In this document: positions 1 to 8,302 of the stretch, in pieces
Layout: each line of letters begins with the position of its first letter
How positions within the stretch are numbered: the stretch's first letter is position 1
NCBI GenBank assembly: GCA_018647505.1
Contig: JABGSX010000013.1
Coordinates: 1-57,997 of the forward strand
Reading direction: 5' to 3'
Length of the DNA stretch: 57,997 bases
Source of the DNA: a bacterium
GTDB taxonomy: Bacteria > Babelota > Babeliae > Babelales > JABGSX01
Position numbers and translations under genes: made by a program
The notes under the pieces: model-generated
The model's database searches: none
The model's input: only the letters and a program-made list of their open reading frames with translations
What the model was told of the DNA's origin: nothing

Positions 1-1980
1 GTTGATTGCTCATCATTTGAAGCCGGCCAACAGAAAATATTGGATTCATTGGACAATGCATTAGAATGGCATGAAAGCCTGGAGCCTAATATCCGCCCAA
101 TTATAGCATTTGTGTTGCAAGATATAGAGTCGACATACCAATTTTCTACAAATGGATATCAAAAAGAATCAGGCGGAAAGTTGGAGCAAGTACAAAAACT
201 TCTTGGTGAAAATGAATATGGCCAACCATTTGATCGAGTCCACCTTATTGATCAGTTCAAAAAATATGTAGAACCAATTGCAAATCGAATTGATGATAAC
301 TGTACCTATAAAGGCAAGGGTGAATTTGCAGACGAATATCTTTTAACGGACGAAGAGCAAAAAGAATATAACATTGAGGGAAATTCGCTTTTGATGCGAA
401 TGAACCATTTTACTAATCAGAGCAAGCTGGAAGATCTTCGCAAGGTCAACTATGAAAAGCTTGCAAATTACTTACTCGAAAATAGAAAAGTTTCTTATAA
501 ATCAGCCAAAGAGCATGAAGCCCTTTTTATCGAGCAAAGCAATAACTACAAAAAGACTTACGACAACCAAACGGCTGGCCGATATCACAAGCGAATTGTT
601 GCAATTGAAAAAACAATGGTAGCGCCAAATAACTTTCAAATACAAAGATTGGAACTTTCATGGCAGGTGCATTCGATTTTGCGGACCCATAAAATTGCCC
701 CGTATAAGTTTGAGCAAGTCATGGGTAACGACACACAAATTCAGGCCTACTCTGAATCGGTAAATATTTTGAATAAAATTCCTGGGCTTGTGTCTCTTGA
801 AACAGAGAGTATAGATATAAACAATATTGTGAATGCGTTAGCACATCTTTCTGAAGCCTCTCGCAAAAGCACAGAACAAGGAACCGTCGTGCGAAGTTTT
901 GACATAAATGATTTGTGCTATGGTGCAATAGAATGTGTTAAAACAACAGTTAAATATGGAAAGGCAGTTGGTTTAGGAGTTCTTGACGGTTGTTCGGCTA
1001 CAGGGTCTAAGCTTTTGCATCCAGTGGACACTGCTACAAACATGATAATGAGTACATATTATTTAGGTCAAGGACTGACCAAAATATGTGTTCGTTACTT
1101 TGATTGGGATATTTGTAGTGAACTACGGCCAAAAGAAGGGGCTGGACAGCAATTTATTGATGATGTTTCAAATTTGTATGAAATTGTAAAAACAAAACTG
1201 TCTCAAATGTCTGGCCCGGCAATTACACGGCGCGGAACAAAGGAGGCAACTGAACTTGTCACTTCTGCAATTATGCTCAATGGTCTTTCAAAAATACTTA
1301 ACCCGGTAAAAAACGGAGTATTAAAACACAGTGCTTCAATTGGGAAAAAGCTATCTAAATCAATAGGCAATAAATTAGAATATACAGGATTGTCAGAAGA
1401 CATTATTGCCAATCCCTTTGGTGCAGCTGTAGCACAGTCAGCCCATGATGTTTTTGATATTGTCCAAACGGCACAACATGTTTCTAAAACCAAATCGATT
1501 CCATTCCAAATTGCTTTTGCAGATGTTAGTACCAGTTGTTTTTTGGAAAAAGACCGCGAGTTTGAAGATGCTGCAAAGAACGTTCGGACCAATGCTGCGT
1601 GGAAAAAAATGCGCGAGTATGAAAAAAGGAAAGGTAACAAGGGGCCGGAACATGACCATGATGATCCTAGAGAAAAGGAACGGGAGGAAAGAAAAAAGTT
1701 TATTCCTTCAACACAGGACATAGCTGAGGCAAAAGAGCTGAATAGATACGTGCAAAAACTTTGTGCAGAGAGTCAAAAAAATTTCAACAAATATCAAAAG
1801 TTAGGATTAGAGTCTCCATCCAAAAAATTTTTTGACCATATTCTTAGTAAACACCACCCAAAAGGAGCCAAGTTCAAATATAATAAAAGAATAAAAAAAA
1901 ATCACAGAATCGGTTTTTATGGAGGACATAGATGTAAACAGCTTGTCTTTAGAGGCTTGGAAAAATGGTCGTTTAGTTGA
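1..1980 (+). CDS. Large polymorphic-toxin-like protein, 5' partial, frameshifted near its 3' end
   Basis: The frame is open from base 1, so the start lies outside the window; a TTG at position 40 is only the first possible internal start. About 660 codons are visible. I recognise no named N-terminal domain. The middle is helical, and the last part has a charged linker rich in Asp, Glu, Arg and Lys (about 1640-1700) followed by a compact tail with DHILSKHHPKGAKF. That layout, with two small paralogous genes directly behind it, is typical of polymorphic toxins with a C-terminal effector domain and immunity genes. The present frame ends in an unconvincing tail after an A9 run at 1893-1901. Removing one A would join it to the open frame ending at 2113. 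Residues encoded at 1362-1548 recur at 3754-3940. The toxin role is inference from architecture. Confidence 0.6.
   Translation, partial: VDCSSFEAGQQKILDSLDNALEWHESLEPNIRPIIAFVLQDIESTYQFSTNGYQKESGGKLEQVQKLLGENEYGQPFDRVHLIDQFKKYVEPIANRIDDNCTYKGKGEFADEYLLTDEEQKEYNIEGNSLLMRMNHFTNQSKLEDLRKVNYEKLANYLLENRKVSYKSAKEHEALFIEQSNNYKKTYDNQTAGRYHKRIVAIEKTMVAPNNFQIQRLELSWQVHSILRTHKIAPYKFEQVMGNDTQIQAYSESVNILNKIPGLVSLETESIDINNIVNALAHLSEASRKSTEQGTVVRSFDINDLCYGAIECVKTTVKYGKAVGLGVLDGCSATGSKLLHPVDTATNMIMSTYYLGQGLTKICVRYFDWDICSELRPKEGAGQQFIDDVSNLYEIVKTKLSQMSGPAITRRGTKEATELVTSAIMLNGLSKILNPVKNGVLKHSASIGKKLSKSIGNKLEYTGLSEDIIANPFGAAVAQSAHDVFDIVQTAQHVSKTKSIPFQIAFADVSTSCFLEKDREFEDAAKNVRTNAAWKKMREYEKRKGNKGPEHDHDDPREKEREERKKFIPSTQDIAEAKELNRYVQKLCAESQKNFNKYQKLGLESPSKKFFDHILSKHHPKGAKFKYNKRIKKNHRIGFYGGHRCKQLVFRGLEKWSFS
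1362..1548 (+). repeat. Copy A of a direct repeat within the toxin locus
   Basis: This segment of the large toxin-like gene recurs at 3754-3940 with many mismatches but long identical runs, for example around GCACAGTCAGCCCATGATG. It encodes the region immediately before the variable C-terminal part, which is where homologous exchange of toxin tails would be expected. Confidence 0.9.
1893..1901 (+). repeat. A9 homopolymer at the frameshift point
   Basis: Nine consecutive A residues lie inside the toxin-like gene. With eight A the upstream frame would run on as IKKITESVFMEDIDVNS and end at 2113. With nine it leaves that frame and stops at 1980. The tract could be a slippage or phase-variation site, a real inactivating mutation, or a sequencing error. 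Confidence 0.7.
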
Positions 1981-2113
1981 AAAAAATGTTAAAGAATATT
2001 CTTTCAGAATGGCTGTTGGTTATACTAACAAAAATAATCCAACAAGTGTTGTAAAAATTGTACTAAACCCAGAAGGGAAAAGCTTCGCTAGCTTTTTCCC
2101 AAAATATGAGTGA
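1902..2113 (+). pseudogene. Out-of-frame C-terminal end of the toxin-like gene
   Basis: This stretch is open in the +1 frame relative to the upstream gene. It encodes a well-formed domain end with the pattern AWKNGRLVEK, then VGYTNKNNPTSVVKIVL, then GKSFASFFPKYE. The alternating strands and final FFP motif look like the end of a small nuclease-type toxin domain, and they fit the DHILSKHHPKG segment just upstream. An ATG at 1919 exists, but no ribosome binding site was seen before it. I read it as the displaced end of the preceding gene rather than an independent gene. The exact toxin family is not recognised. Confidence 0.55.
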
Positions 2114-2125
2114 AGTGGATGCAAA

Positions 2126-2434
2126 GTGAGAATAGACGTGAGTGTTATAGAAAAGACTAATGACGGTATTGACTACATAGGCAGCATAGAAGGTGGTGAG
2201 TTGAAAATAACGTTAAGATCTTTCAAAGAAAATGGTTTGAAAAACCTATGTTTTGTAGGTTGGATAGGAAATACAATTTTTAATTCTAAGCAATCAAAAG
2301 AAATATTGAAAGAGATAGAGCATTTATTTGGGGAGGGGCTATTGCCAAAAATAGTTTATAAACTCATAAAGGATGGAGCAGAGCGAGTGGAGTCCAGCCC
2401 TGGGGTGCATTATCTTTTGTTTGAGGGAGAGTGA
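2126..2434 (+). CDS. Candidate immunity protein (copy 1)
   Basis: A protein of 102 residues, without signal peptide or membrane segment, that begins 12 bases after the displaced toxin end. The start is a GTG; another in-frame GTG at 2138 is possible. Its C-terminal half (TIFNSKQSKEILKEIEHLF, later HYLLFEGE) aligns by eye with the next gene (TVFNKNQVMIIKREI, later TYLLFEV), so the two are paralogues. Small cytosolic duplicated proteins immediately behind a toxin domain are typically its immunity proteins. The role is inferred from position; the family name is not recognised. Confidence 0.55.
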   Translation: MRIDVSVIEKTNDGIDYIGSIEGGELKITLRSFKENGLKNLCFVGWIGNTIFNSKQSKEILKEIEHLFGEGLLPKIVYKLIKDGAERVESSPGVHYLLFEGE

Positions 2435-2437
2435 AGC

Positions 2438-2803
2438 ATGGTTTTAACCGTAGCAATAATGAATGAATTTTTTGAGTTAGAGTCTGTGTTGGGAGATATT
2501 TCTGAAAGTGATGTGACCAAGATCATCAAATTTGCGAAACAAAAAAATACAAGCTGTCTTGGTTTTATTTCTACAAAGGAAGATACGGTTTTTAACAAAA
2601 ATCAAGTCATGATTATAAAGAGGGAGATAACCGAAATAAGTGAAGATATAGATAAAGGTGTTTTGAAAATTATAAATGACGGAATAAGTATTGTTAATGA
2701 TGAAATATACACTTATTTGCTTTTCGAGGTGAAAAACGACGATTACAAAGAAAATATTGATGGGTGGAAAAGTTTTCACAAAAGAGTTGGACTGATGTCA
2801 TAA
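2438..2803 (+). CDS. Candidate immunity protein (copy 2)
   Basis: A protein of 121 residues, starting at ATG 2438 three bases after the stop of the preceding gene and preceded by GGGAGAG. It is a diverged paralogue of the 2126-2434 product, sharing the FN..Q....I..EI block and the terminal LLFE block. It has no signal peptide, as expected for a cytosolic immunity protein. Duplication followed by divergence may protect against different versions of the same toxin. The inference rests on context and on the paralogy visible in the translations. Confidence 0.55.
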   Translation: MVLTVAIMNEFFELESVLGDISESDVTKIIKFAKQKNTSCLGFISTKEDTVFNKNQVMIIKREITEISEDIDKGVLKIINDGISIVNDEIYTYLLFEVKNDDYKENIDGWKSFHKRVGLMS

Positions 2804-2879
2804 AAATATTTTATTGACTGAAAAGAAAGCATGTTGAAGAGAAAAAAGAGCGGTCTAAAAAAGTTTGTATCACTAGAAA

Positions 2880-3341
2880 ATGAAATTGGAGTTTTTACAA
2901 CGAGAAATAGGCGACGGGCTGAAGGGTTATGAAGAACTAGGAAATGATAAAATTCAGTTGAATTTAAAACATTTTCTGCAACCCGATGCTGATAAAAAAG
3001 GATTTCCAACGGGCTTCCACTATAATTACTTGGGTCATTACAAAGACAAATACAAAGTTACAAAGGCTGTGGATTTGAAAAATGGATGTTATATTGCTAA
3101 GTGGTTTAATGGTGTTAAGTGGAAGACGTCATCTTTTGTGCCAGATAATATTACGCGATTGGAATATGTAAAATCTGTAAAGGAGGCGTATTATAATTTG
3201 ATTAATAAAGTAGCGAATGCAGATGCAAGTTTTAATCTCATCGGTGGGGCGAAAAATGGAATAATTTTTGAAATGGAAACAACGGGGAAAGGGGTTGTGA
3301 ATACGGCTTATCCATGTATAAAAAAAATGAGTATACAATGA
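2880..3341 (+). CDS. Orphan EndoU-like nuclease toxin module
   Basis: A protein of 153 residues with the layout of the bacterial EndoU RNase toxin domain: a first histidine in LKHFLQPD, a second in PTGFHYNYLG, then a strand block NGCYIAKWFNG, a lysine and serine block KWKTSSFVP, and a closing helix YVKSVKEAYYN. EndoU enzymes use two His and one Lys. There is no signal peptide or delivery region, so this is a free-standing C-terminal module like the orphan cassettes of contact-dependent inhibition loci. An in-frame TAG lies at 2874, just before the ATG. In another frame, about 2818-2880 encodes a Lys/Glu-rich stretch resembling the linker of the large toxin-like gene, possibly a scar. It overlaps the next gene by ATGA. 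Confidence 0.6.
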   Translation: MKLEFLQREIGDGLKGYEELGNDKIQLNLKHFLQPDADKKGFPTGFHYNYLGHYKDKYKVTKAVDLKNGCYIAKWFNGVKWKTSSFVPDNITRLEYVKSVKEAYYNLINKVANADASFNLIGGAKNGIIFEMETTGKGVVNTAYPCIKKMSIQ

Positions 3342-3739
3342 AACGATTGACTCTCGTAAAAAGTAAAAGTGGTATATATATGCCAGTTACAACAAAAAAA
3401 GCATCTGAAATGTTGGTGAAAATAGAAAATGCGACGCTCGGCCTAATTTATACTTTTTTAGAACGCGATGGAGTTATTTTAGTTCCAAATTTAATTTTAG
3501 ATTGGGTTGATAGTGATGAAGATTGGATGGGAACAAATGTGTGTTTTTTGAAAAAAGAGGGTGATAAAATTGTTTTGGGTCGGGATAATGACGAAGATGA
3601 AGATTTTTTATTTTCCACGAGTAGAAATAACTTTATTACAATGGTTAAAAAATGGTTAGAGGTAATAAAAATGGAACCAAAAAAAATAACTATAAGTCTA
3701 TACGATGATGGTCGAGTAGAAATCAAACCTATCGATTAA
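3338..3739 (+). CDS. Candidate immunity protein for the EndoU-like module
   Basis: A protein of 133 residues if it starts at ATG 3338, which overlaps the toxin stop as ATGA; a start at 3314 inside the toxin module is also open but would overlap it more. It is acidic in the middle (DSDEDW, DNDEDEDF) and has no signal peptide. Translational coupling to the EndoU-like module suggests it is the matching immunity protein. It is not obviously related to the two immunity candidates upstream. Family not recognised. Confidence 0.5.
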   Translation: MKRLTLVKSKSGIYMPVTTKKASEMLVKIENATLGLIYTFLERDGVILVPNLILDWVDSDEDWMGTNVCFLKKEGDKIVLGRDNDEDEDFLFSTSRNNFITMVKKWLEVIKMEPKKITISLYDDGRVEIKPID

Positions 3740-3753
3740 AAGCTAACAAAATA

Positions 3754-3952
3754 AATAGGCAACAAATTAGAATATACAAGCCTATCCGAAGGTATTATTG
3801 CCAATCCTTTTGGAGCAGCTGTAGCACAGTCAGCCCATGATGTTTTTGATGTTGCCCAAACGGCACAACACGTATCTAAAACAAAATCGATTCCATTCCA
3901 AATTGCTTTTGCAGATGTTGGTACAGATTGGTTTTTTGAAACAGGCAAATAG
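3754..3952 (+). pseudogene. Fragment of a second copy of the toxin-like gene
   Basis: It is collinear with 1362-1548 and translates to IGNKLEYTSLSEG followed by the same ANPFGAAVAQSAHDVFD block, then ends at TAG 3950-3952 after FFETGK. There is no start codon with a ribosome binding site, and the rest of the gene is missing. It is best explained as a remnant of a duplicated toxin gene or of a deleted cassette. The surrounding intergenic region (3740-4064) holds nothing else I can support. Confidence 0.8.
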
Positions 3953-4064
3953 CTTAATGGTTTGGTTCTCTTTCTTTAAATGGAAATAAAATAAAATTTG
4001 CGCTAAACTAGCTCATTCAAGGTTTTTGATATACAAGCATGAACTGTAAATAGGAATGATCTTT

Positions 4065-7022
4065 ATGAGCTGCAAAAAATTATTATTAATTTGTTCCACA
4101 CTTTTTTTTTCTTGGTCCGTTAGTCCTTTAACTTTGTTAAAGGGTGATCTTGAAGATTCTACAACAAACTCATTTTCTTTTGGCGTAGGCCCAACGGTGG
4201 CCGTTTCAACTGGTGCGTTTACTACTCAGGATTATTTTATTGTCGGATCAAACGCTGCTCTTACGGGTGATGCACAAAAGTATGCGGTGTCGGTTATTGG
4301 GCCTGGTGATGAATTTATTCCGGCAGCTCCAGCAACGGTTACTCTTAATGGAGACGCAGATGAATCAAATCCTTTATATGGTGAACAAATTTCCCTTATA
4401 AGTAATTTTGGTGACAAAATTTTGACTGTGACACAGGGTGATCCAAAGGCTATCTGCATGATAAACACGAGTGTTAGCTCTATAAGTGATGATGGAACAA
4501 TATCTGTTATTACTTCAGAACGCTTGCGAGATGCTCAAGGGGAAAGCACAAATATCACCGGTGGTATTATTGCTTTGGATACAGGGATCACGTCAACGGC
4601 CGGTACTGGAAATGTAAACTATATTTTTGCGGCAGTTAAAGATAGTGCTGATAACTTTGGCTCTAACAACTCTGGCATTGCTATGTTGTCATTGGGAGGG
4701 TCTTCAAGTTTAATTTCTACCATAACACAGCTTGATGCTTATGACGTATCTGGTGGTGATGGAAAAACAAGAGCGGTTCCATTAAGCCCTTCTATTAATG
4801 CATTAAAAATTGGTTCTAATTTATCTAGCATCGCGGAGCATGCTGATCTTCATTGGGATTCAAGGTTGGAGCGATTGTATATAGCGTTGGATGTTACTGG
4901 TGCTTTGGCGCCAACAAGTGGGGCCATCTCTGTGGTCGTCGGTCGTCCGGATTGTACAAAAAATAAACTATACTTTGATTTGATAGCTCTGCCTGATTGT
5001 TTTGATGGTAGTAACAGGGTTGTTGGTAAAACTGGAGTTTGGGCGCAGACTAATATGCGTAAAGTTCGGACAATGCACACAAGCACCATGCTTTCATACC
5101 TAGTTTGTGTTCAAAGAAGTGGGGAGGTTGATTCTGTATACGCTCTTCCATTGGTTGACCTTCAGCCAGAGCTTGGCAGAGACGGTGTAGGTGACAAAAA
5201 ACATGGAACAATTGCTAAAATTGATACAACAACCAACACAGATATTTACGAAAAATGGTATTCAGAGACTACAATGATTGACCGTGCGTTTACAACAACA
5301 GCGCAGTCTGTTGGTGATATTCCTGCAACCAGTGATGTTCGTGTAAAAATTGGTGGAGACGGTTCGTTGCCACAAACTGCTACAGGCCATACACATATAA
5401 CCGATATTGTTATAAATGGTGATAGTGTTTATGTTTCTATTGGCGAAGATGGGGCTGCATTAGCTGCTGGTATTTTTTATTCTCAAGCAATTTTTGATGA
5501 GTGTGGAAGGGTTCGAGCATGGACAAATTGGCGCAGAGTGTGTGGTTCGGCTGCAAACACCTTCTCATTTGCAACGGTTAGCGAAGGAAATTTTTTATTT
5601 GGTAGTGGTACAAGCGAAAACAGCGTTAATACATTCAAAAGAACAGATTGGGCACAAGAAAACCAAGACGGGCTTCTTGGTGGAACAACAAGTGATGGTT
5701 CTATTGGGCTTGTTGCTCAGTTAGAACAGGACCTTTCTTCTGAGTGCGGAGGAATACAGGGGTTGTTTGATTTTTCTCGTTCAACTCCAGGGTTTACAGA
5801 TGTAGCAGCAAGCAAGATTTCCATGATGGTTGCAACAGGGTACAAGAAAGTTGTTTTGTTGGAAACAGGAAGAAGCGTTGCGAGTGTTTATACCCCTGAT
5901 ACTGGGGATTTTGCGACGACTAAAAAAACGTATGATGAGGCAAAAATTAAATTAACCGATTCTCCTGTAGGAACAACAAAAATTATGTCATTTTCTGGAG
6001 GAGTTCTTGATGATCTTGGGCCAATTACGCAAGCTGAGGTTGCAAAGGCAGGAAATAAAGCCTGGCTTTTTGCTGGAGGCGTAGGGGGCTTGGCGGTATT
6101 GTGTGCGGCGAATGGAGACGGTTGGGCTGCAGCGACTGGTTATGGTCTTAAGCTAGGTTTTGAAGGAATAAATCTTGTTGGTGGTGTGGATACAGAAGTA
6201 CAGTTTAGAGAAGTTGGAGATTATTCGTATATTAAAAAAATTGTGAGTGATGGAAACTTTCTTTATGTTTTAACCAATAACAAATTGGATAGAATTGATT
6301 TAACATCTGTAGATCTTAGTAATTTTGACTCAACGGCAGATGTTGTAACTCTGGCAAACACAGAAACCTTTTTTGGAAATTCTACATTTGATTGTTTCTC
6401 GGATCTGATTATTTCTGGAAACTTTGCTTTATTGGCTACGAGCAACGGCTTGTACCGTGTCGGAAATGGCAATAATATTTCTACAGAGACATCTGAAGAT
6501 GATGTTAGCTGGGCCTTGGTTGATGTTCCAGATGGATTACCAACAATTTTGCAGCTTTTTGCTGTTTGTCCAACGGGAAGAGCACAGGATTGTACTGGTG
6601 CAGATATGTATAGCCAGTTATATGTTCTAAGTGCATACAGTGGTTATGACCAGGCGCGAGTGAATAGATTTTTATTGAGTGATTCTTCTGGTGGAATTGT
6701 TGATGATACAATAAAACCGCTTGAGTCTGATTCATTTGTAAATGGTACAAATTCATTTTTCATAAACTATGGATTGTTTAGAGATTCATTTGCAACCGAT
6801 GGTGCAATGTACTTTGCACAGCGGTCAAAAGACGGCTCGGCAGGTCCACTGGTTCAAGCTTTGGCATCGGGGTATACTTGTGGAAAAATGTATCTTATTA
6901 AAAAAGCCTATAATTTGAGTCTTGGTCTTTCGGATGCAAATACGATTGGAAAAATTGTCCGAAATTCTGCATCGGGGGCGTGGATTGTTAATGGAGATTT
7001 TGGATTAAAAGTTAACGAATAA
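4065..7022 (+). CDS. Large secreted protein, possibly propeller-like
   Basis: About 985 residues. ATG 4065 is preferred over ATG 4056 because AGGA at 4052-4055 then has normal spacing. The N-terminus is a clear signal peptide (KK, then LLLICSTLFFSW). The mature protein is rich in Gly, Ser, Thr and Asp and strongly beta. Loosely repeated units such as SDGNFLYVLTNNKLDRID and SGNFALLATSNGLYRVGNG resemble blades of a propeller; that is inference. It has scattered cysteines. It lies 17 bases before a barrel-type outer membrane protein gene and is probably cotranscribed, so it may be a surface or periplasmic partner of that barrel. No family recognised. Confidence 0.8.
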   Translation: MSCKKLLLICSTLFFSWSVSPLTLLKGDLEDSTTNSFSFGVGPTVAVSTGAFTTQDYFIVGSNAALTGDAQKYAVSVIGPGDEFIPAAPATVTLNGDADESNPLYGEQISLISNFGDKILTVTQGDPKAICMINTSVSSISDDGTISVITSERLRDAQGESTNITGGIIALDTGITSTAGTGNVNYIFAAVKDSADNFGSNNSGIAMLSLGGSSSLISTITQLDAYDVSGGDGKTRAVPLSPSINALKIGSNLSSIAEHADLHWDSRLERLYIALDVTGALAPTSGAISVVVGRPDCTKNKLYFDLIALPDCFDGSNRVVGKTGVWAQTNMRKVRTMHTSTMLSYLVCVQRSGEVDSVYALPLVDLQPELGRDGVGDKKHGTIAKIDTTTNTDIYEKWYSETTMIDRAFTTTAQSVGDIPATSDVRVKIGGDGSLPQTATGHTHITDIVINGDSVYVSIGEDGAALAAGIFYSQAIFDECGRVRAWTNWRRVCGSAANTFSFATVSEGNFLFGSGTSENSVNTFKRTDWAQENQDGLLGGTTSDGSIGLVAQLEQDLSSECGGIQGLFDFSRSTPGFTDVAASKISMMVATGYKKVVLLETGRSVASVYTPDTGDFATTKKTYDEAKIKLTDSPVGTTKIMSFSGGVLDDLGPITQAEVAKAGNKAWLFAGGVGGLAVLCAANGDGWAAATGYGLKLGFEGINLVGGVDTEVQFREVGDYSYIKKIVSDGNFLYVLTNNKLDRIDLTSVDLSNFDSTADVVTLANTETFFGNSTFDCFSDLIISGNFALLATSNGLYRVGNGNNISTETSEDDVSWALVDVPDGLPTILQLFAVCPTGRAQDCTGADMYSQLYVLSAYSGYDQARVNRFLLSDSSGGIVDDTIKPLESDSFVNGTNSFFINYGLFRDSFATDGAMYFAQRSKDGSAGPLVQALASGYTCGKMYLIKKAYNLSLGLSDANTIGKIVRNSASGAWIVNGDFGLKVNE

Positions 7023-7039
7023 TTTGTTGGAAGATGTAT

Positions 7040-8302
7040 ATGGTAAACAAGAAATTATGGTTTTTATTTTCAACTGTATTGTTCTATGCAAATGGAATAT
7101 GTGCATTGCCTCAGATAAGCGTGACAGATCCGTTTGATGTCAGGTTTGATAATCCTAAGTATAAAAAAACAAAGTGGAATATTGGCTTGTTTGCGGAAAC
7201 ATCGCTTGGCCTTGATGCTCGTAATGAAGATGCAGAAAAAGTTAATGTTATGCAATTGTGGCAAGAAAAACAAAATTCGCTAGCTATGATAAAGGGTTAT
7301 ACCTCTTCTGCTGATATTGGAACTATGCAGGCACTTTTTGATTCAAATGGTGTTAGCGATGATGGTATAAGGGGGTATTTTACTCCAGAGGGTAAAATGC
7401 AATGGAAAGACCTTGTTTTGGCCGGTCGCTATGAGCTTCCATATAATTTTAGCGTTACAGTACATGTTCCGTTTTATTTTTCTAAGTTGGACAATGTTTC
7501 TTGGACAGAGCACACCAAAAACTATGCGACGGCAGATGGTATTGTTAAAGACAATCTTACAAACAGTTTTGTTGCCAATGTTAAAAAGTATGGGGATGGC
7601 CTTGACTTGGAAGGTTGGAGTCGGGCCGGATTTGGTGATGTTGATGCAATGATAAAATGGGAAAAATATTTTCCTCAAATGAAAGCTTGGCTTAAAGAGG
7701 TCGGTATCAATGTTAAGTGTGGGGTTACAATTCCAACAGGGCTAAAAAAAGACGAGGACTCTGTCCTTTCTGTACCATTTGGAAACGATGGATCTTTTGG
7801 TCTAGTTTTTGGAGGGGGGCTGGGCTTGCGTTGGCTTGAGCATGTTGTTGGTGGAGTGCAAGCAGAATTTATGCAGCAATTTGGAAATACCAAAGAACGA
7901 AGAATAAAAACCAATCGAAATCAAACAGATTTGCTGTTATTAACAAAGGCAAATGTTAGAAAGTCTTATGGCTTCTCGCAACACTTTACTGTTCACCTTG
8001 GTGTAGAAAAGTTTGCGGGAGGGCTATCCGCTTCTATACAATATGATCACTATAGACATGATGATGATCATGTTTCGGTAATGGATAATGTTTATTCCGA
8101 TTCGATAGCAAATACAGCAAAGAGCTTAGAAGAGTGGTCGCTAAATACGTTGCAATGTAATTTGGAATATGACTTTGGTGTTCATAGGGCAGAAGAAGCT
8201 ACCCTTAAGCCAAAAATTTCTGTGTTTTATAGGTTGCCTATAAAGGCGCGACAGGTAGTAGCAGGTCATTTTGTTGGTGGACAAATTTCTTTTGAATTTT
8301 AA
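7040..8302 (+). CDS. Predicted outer-membrane beta-barrel protein
   Basis: About 420 residues with a signal peptide (NKKLWFLFSTVLFYANGICA). ATG 7040 is chosen over 7034 because GGAAG ends just before 7034. The mature part has alternating amphipathic strands (LGLRWLEHVVGGVQAEF, FTVHLGVEKFAGGLSASIQY) and ends in GGQISFEF, with the terminal aromatic residue used as a barrel-assembly signal. The length suits a mid-sized barrel. It is the last gene before a strong terminator. It resembles in style the barrel at 46161-47630, but I cannot claim homology by eye. Function unknown; channel or surface protein. Confidence 0.75.
   Translation: MVNKKLWFLFSTVLFYANGICALPQISVTDPFDVRFDNPKYKKTKWNIGLFAETSLGLDARNEDAEKVNVMQLWQEKQNSLAMIKGYTSSADIGTMQALFDSNGVSDDGIRGYFTPEGKMQWKDLVLAGRYELPYNFSVTVHVPFYFSKLDNVSWTEHTKNYATADGIVKDNLTNSFVANVKKYGDGLDLEGWSRAGFGDVDAMIKWEKYFPQMKAWLKEVGINVKCGVTIPTGLKKDEDSVLSVPFGNDGSFGLVFGGGLGLRWLEHVVGGVQAEFMQQFGNTKERRIKTNRNQTDLLLLTKANVRKSYGFSQHFTVHLGVEKFAGGLSASIQYDHYRHDDDHVSVMDNVYSDSIANTAKSLEEWSLNTLQCNLEYDFGVHRAEEATLKPKISVFYRLPIKARQVVAGHFVGGQISFEF

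Follow-up and report, generated by a model that had tools for sequence, protein, structure and literature searches.

Very probable polymorphic-toxin locus with replaceable toxin ends and cassette immunity genes in a Dependentiae genome

The first 3.95 kb of the window, namely the whole 57,997-nucleotide contig JABGSX010000013.1 (designated C47) of a 1.08 Mb Dependentiae genome in 57 contigs, very probably forms a polymorphic-toxin locus, in which a constant trunk bears a replaceable toxin end and the immunity genes are held in the same cassettes as the toxins. In this region, a large open frame (1-1980) is followed by two small genes, an EndoU module, its partner gene and a remnant of the large gene, as listed below. 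Sister loci were found in the same genome on contigs C43 and C50 (the latter locus is also labelled L011); other loci carry L numbers, some of them paired (L056/L062, L057/L064 and L061/L063), with L055 being single.

1-1682, + strand: toxin trunk, its 5' end lying beyond the contig (core profile match; identity to C50)
1683-2113, + strand: C-terminal toxin domain of the front toxin, in frame 1 to ~1902 and in frame 2 over ~1901-2113, with domain homology from ~1792
1893-1901, + strand: A9 run marking the switch of reading frame; of the window's four intragenic 9-base runs, no other falls at a frame break
2126-2434, + strand: immunity candidate A for the front toxin (a relative follows the intact toxin in L055)
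2438-2803, + strand: immunity candidate B, paralogue of A (a relative follows the intact toxin in L056)
2880-3341, + strand: orphan EndoU module that has a start codon of its own (PF14436; domain at 2967-3314)
3338-3739, + strand: EndoU immunity candidate, overlapping the module by ATGA (homology to the C50 partner)
3738-3944, + strand: decayed toxin-core remnant with two in-frame stops

The front gene is truncated at its 5' side by the contig start. Its conserved core lies at ~583-1305 and was matched by a core profile built from 14 relatives (580-1305, E 2e-77). Over 1038-1682, the DNA is 94.7% identical to that of contig C50, and the homology ceases at 1682. Since dS (synonymous divergence) is 0.14 and dN (nonsynonymous divergence) is 0.03 between the two copies, the core is under purifying selection between C47 and C50. 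The large protein, which an earlier note made from the sequence alone had called toxin-like, matched no family in Pfam or NCBIfam, the two libraries scanned, including no non-toxin family over its full length, and its C-terminus varies among relatives. The same note had recognised in the locus the layout of toxins that swap C-terminal domains, and the variation that it asked for was indeed found, both in the comparison with C50 and across the phylum.

Among 101 Dependentiae genomes, the core profile was detected in 47, at up to 16 places per genome, and EndoU (PF14436) in 38, of which 34 scored above the cut-off; none of the 14 control genomes contained PF14436. All 33 EndoU modules inspected occupied the C-terminal position within their own frame. 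The 63 C-terminal regions collected behind the core, a set in which EndoU is over-represented, some loci having been retrieved through it, clustered into 22 groups, with 27 of the 63 counted as EndoU, and gave Pfam matches to EndoU (28 of 63) and Ntox21 (2 of 63), so that the one core would seem to carry at least 22 C-terminal types. In addition, a small gene (80-200 aa) stood at the stop of 43 of the 60 core toxins, as compared with 6 of the 27 other long window genes (Fisher p 2e-5). Standalone toxin cassettes were located near a full-length toxin in the window (2880-3341), in C43 (5763-6296) and in L063 (4905-5321). In terms of the features by which Zhang et al. 2012 recognise polymorphic toxins, the homologues diverge at their C-termini, an immunity-type gene lies downstream and standalone cassettes occur; a recognised C-terminal toxin domain is present in relatives (EndoU, Ntox21), the window's front domain being absent from the libraries searched.

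Some individual loci are worth recording alongside. In genome G041, the toxin pair L017 and L019 has near-identical trunks (mostly 80-95% identical) and divergent Ntox21 ends (8-40%); these are the two trunks in which a pretoxin HINT domain (PT-HINT) was seen. L063 (2069-4836 of JAJCZD010000014.1) encodes a trunk toxin with a different unnamed C-terminus, an end type that recurs in L094, together with a 195-aa partner that overlaps it by ATGA. In the window's own genome, a weak core match was found within a 333-aa frame on contig C4 (L114, 1496-2494), possibly a trunk relative or a fragment.

Comparison with the sister loci indicated how the locus may have been put together. C50 begins inside a toxin whose core is that of the window and is then followed by EndoU in place of the window's end; its homology to the window is lost at 1682 and regained at 2845, from where its EndoU and partner are collinear with the window orphan (76.8%). 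Because the alignment ends at 1682 and restarts at 2845, the window appears to represent the C50 arrangement plus an extra cassette of one toxin and two immunity genes (1683-2844) placed between the core and the EndoU cassette. Furthermore, the 45 bases ahead of the window orphan also match those ahead of the second, broken EndoU of C50, and the orphan is therefore a mosaic of both C50 cassettes. C43, meanwhile, encodes a full-length toxin of 1401 aa with a hydrophobic leader and EndoU at its end, followed first by a partner and then by an orphan EndoU with a partner of its own, both partners showing the ATGA overlap. Since the genes downstream of C47 and C50 differ and no homology extends past the toxin region in 12 kb of C50, the two were read as two loci, and the idea that they are strain variants of one locus was rejected; a mixed bin is a less likely origin of the pair.

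The orphan module at 2880-3341, proposed beforehand as a free EndoU-like nuclease, belongs to EndoU_bacteria (PF14436, 28.0 bits against a cut-off of 25.3, E 3e-6) and retains the G-x-H and T-x-Y-P positions, as do 32 relatives; by family membership, it is predicted to be a uridylate-specific ribonuclease. Sequence matches of this protein in the PDB were chance hits to fluorescent proteins. The ATGA overlap reported for its partner was reproduced, with the EndoU stop at 3341 and the partner start at 3338. The partner shares 66% identity with the gene that follows the C50 EndoU toxin and has relatives behind each of the two EndoU modules of C43. As its homology to the C50 partner starts exactly at the ATG of the overlap, the true partner is likely the protein of 133 aa and not the 141-aa frame. 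Between cassettes, similarity was mostly 74-96% in the linker and first EndoU half, ~40-64% in the second EndoU half and the first half of the partner, and 84-94% to C50's first partner over the remainder. The stretch at 3189-3432 of the window (second half of the toxin, first half of the immunity gene) is thus far more divergent than its flanks, a pattern that would be the expected trace of toxin-immunity specificity. The degraded piece of the large gene was likewise found as described: at 3738-3944, a remnant shares 88% identity with 1346-1552 and 92% with the C50 core, and carries two TAA stops in the matched frame.

The C-terminal domain of the front toxin is itself split, which had been overlooked in the earlier note: past the A9 run, its second half continues in the other frame (~1901-2113). 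This frame-2 half matches the intact domains of L055, L056 and L057, while the frame-1 half is 50% identical to L064 over 30 aa. Intact relatives of the domain are present in three other Dependentiae genomes, where they end long frames in L055, L056/L062 and L057/L064; in L061/L063, the domain stands alone, as an orphan, downstream of a different toxin. Neither the window halves nor the intact relatives matched any family in Pfam or NCBIfam, and no relative was found among the phages and plasmids searched. A suspected resemblance to Ntox50 and the BECR fold did not hold up, as the structural model was weak (predicted local distance difference test, pLDDT, 66) and gave no match in the PDB.

The two small genes that follow are paralogous, as had been proposed (29% identity, E 1e-4), and both also match immunity genes of relatives. 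Candidate A is 34% identical to the gene after the intact L055 toxin (E 4e-10), and candidate B is 33% identical to the gene after the intact L056 toxin (E 2e-14). A confident alpha+beta model was obtained for candidate A (pLDDT 93), with no meaningful match in the PDB. Relatives of these genes follow each intact toxin, as tandem pairs in L057/L064 and L061/L063, as one full and one short copy in L056, and as a single gene in L055; this ties the unnamed toxin to its immunity family at five loci in four genomes, with the toxin being an orphan at one of these loci. L056/L062 reproduces the window's layout, with the unnamed toxin, two immunity genes, EndoU pieces and an EndoU partner. Since relatives of both small genes follow the front-type toxin elsewhere, both belong to the front toxin. 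All three of the immunity candidates named earlier were consequently retained; their grouping was corrected, with two presumably serving the front toxin and one EndoU. In L055, the toxin-immunity pair is directly followed by coding sequence for a long series of ankyrin-like repeats (2131-3195).

Taken together, we propose that one long protein would bear a leader at its N-terminus, a constant trunk and, at its C-terminus, an exchangeable toxin, and that each toxin type would move as a cassette with its own immunity gene or genes. Recombination would put a new cassette right behind the trunk, and the older toxin-immunity cassette, shifted downstream, would survive as an orphan. The trunk would take the protein out of the producer cell, most likely via Sec, because the full-length relatives have hydrophobic leaders, which are visible by eye (the window gene is truncated on this side). 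EndoU would then cut RNA in bacteria that lack the matching immunity, the neighbouring genes would neutralise the toxins, and the targets would be related bacteria sharing the protist host. In Neisseria, an EndoU relative is a secreted, uridylate-preferring ribonuclease that is blocked by the product of the next gene (PMC4287609). The family, with its undescribed core, is best read as phylum-wide, probably Sec-exported and aimed mainly at related bacteria. Delivery by contact-dependent growth inhibition (CDI) or by a type VI secretion system (T6SS) was not supported: the CdiB/ShlB partner (PF03865) had no match in the window's genome and five partial, weak matches in the 101 genomes, and the T6SS sheath (PF05943) was found in none of the 101, with the E. 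coli control positive. Secretins are near-universal in the phylum and so single out no route.

Several points weigh against the assignment to polymorphic toxins. The trunk has no known structure and matched no family in the Pfam and NCBIfam scans, searches for a CdiB-type protein and a T6SS sheath yielded no secretion partner, and the set of C-terminal regions is biased toward EndoU as stated above. Moreover, the front toxin is frame-broken as assembled, and with this toxin out of frame and the remnant dead, the window copy may be nonfunctional. The break may reflect decay, an assembly error or a slippage site. An assembly error, or slippage at the A9 run that bridges the two frames and leaves the front toxin functional, is a tenable if somewhat doubtful explanation, since the break coincides with the run and the downstream frame retains conserved residues; against it, the three other intragenic 9-base runs of the window sit in unbroken frames. 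We regard as equally tentative the alternative that the window copy is a decaying relic of true polymorphic-toxin ancestry, with a dead front toxin and a silent orphan. The frameshift within the toxin domain and the dead core remnant speak for it, as does the orphan EndoU of C50, which is likewise broken in two places (C50 1604-2045 changes frame at least twice, once at an A10 run and once at a short deletion, beside an intact partner gene). The purifying selection on the core, the intact EndoU module with its conserved active-site positions, and the lack of stops in either half of the split domain all run counter to a relic.

As for the target, known Dependentiae reside within single-celled hosts, and the isolates infect protists, a lifestyle that would suit host-directed effectors acting in the protist, with the neighbouring genes only shielding the producer before export. 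The one paper found to name EndoU in the phylum, a description of an isolate, also assigns it to the enzymes of the cytoplasm that complete the degradation of host polymers, and reports export signals in 44% of the isolate's proteins (PMC6561590). Nevertheless, every toxin type is followed by immunity genes of its own, which differ from one type to the next, and host-directed toxins of endosymbionts were noted by Zhang et al. (PMC3482391) to lack associated immunity genes; we thus consider this explanation unlikely. For the same reason the immunity genes tilt the target toward rival bacteria, both uses being possible. An addiction module tying the protist to the bacterium, as has been suggested for the polymorphic toxins, likewise laid out with orphans, of an endosymbiont of Bodo saltans (PMC8163844), is highly improbable given the patchy presence of the core (47 of 101 genomes) and the host-destroying parasitism of a described isolate of the phylum (PMC6561590).

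Beyond the locus, two long genes at 4056-8302 (988 and 422 aa) have hydrophobic starts and match no Pfam or NCBIfam family.

We hold in even balance the broader proposition that Dependentiae own a polymorphic-toxin class, built on a trunk not described before and rich in undescribed families of toxins and immunity proteins, which is used against close relatives in shared protists. If true, a parasite phylum seen as host-focused would also wage kin-level warfare. The presence of immunity genes and the exchange of C-termini speak for bacteria fighting one another, and competition among intracellular parasites within one protist would become testable. New families of toxins and immunity proteins could be drawn from the C-terminal types without a name, which make up about half of the types sampled. 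A search that covered literature open without subscription found none linking Dependentiae with polymorphic toxins.

In layout, the nearest known system is MafB of Neisseria. Like MafB/MafI, the present family combines a putative leader, a constant N-terminal part, a variable C-terminus including EndoU and a downstream immunity gene, and forms arrays of spare C-terminal cassettes, each with immunity genes (PMC4287609). Unlike MafB/MafI, it belongs to another phylum, no mafA partner was seen, and the trunk is unrelated by sequence, the MafB N-terminal domain DUF1020 having no match in the trunk proteins of the window, C43 or relatives. With the orphan modules of CdiA-CT/CdiI and Rhs it shares displaced toxin-immunity pairs downstream and a homologous stretch for recombination, whereas neither filamentous haemagglutinin (FHA) nor Rhs repeats were found in the Pfam scans, nor a CdiB-type partner in the window's genome. 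Ca. Bodocaedibacter vickermanii, the Bodo saltans endosymbiont, is likewise associated with a protist and has full-length toxins followed by orphan toxin-antitoxin modules (PMC8163844); it is, however, Paracaedibacter-like, with AHH/HNH nucleases as toxins and with a T6SS, the sheath gene of which was found in none of the 101 Dependentiae genomes. The APD1/APD2 effectors of the amoeba endosymbiont Amoebophilus similarly have constant N-termini and polymorphic C-termini (PMC3482391); unlike those effectors, which their authors read as host-directed, the toxins here are accompanied by immunity genes and orphan cassettes. The organisation as such is already known; what appears to be new is the family to which the trunk belongs, the toxin domain at the front together with the immunity family paired with it, and the spread of the system in Dependentiae.
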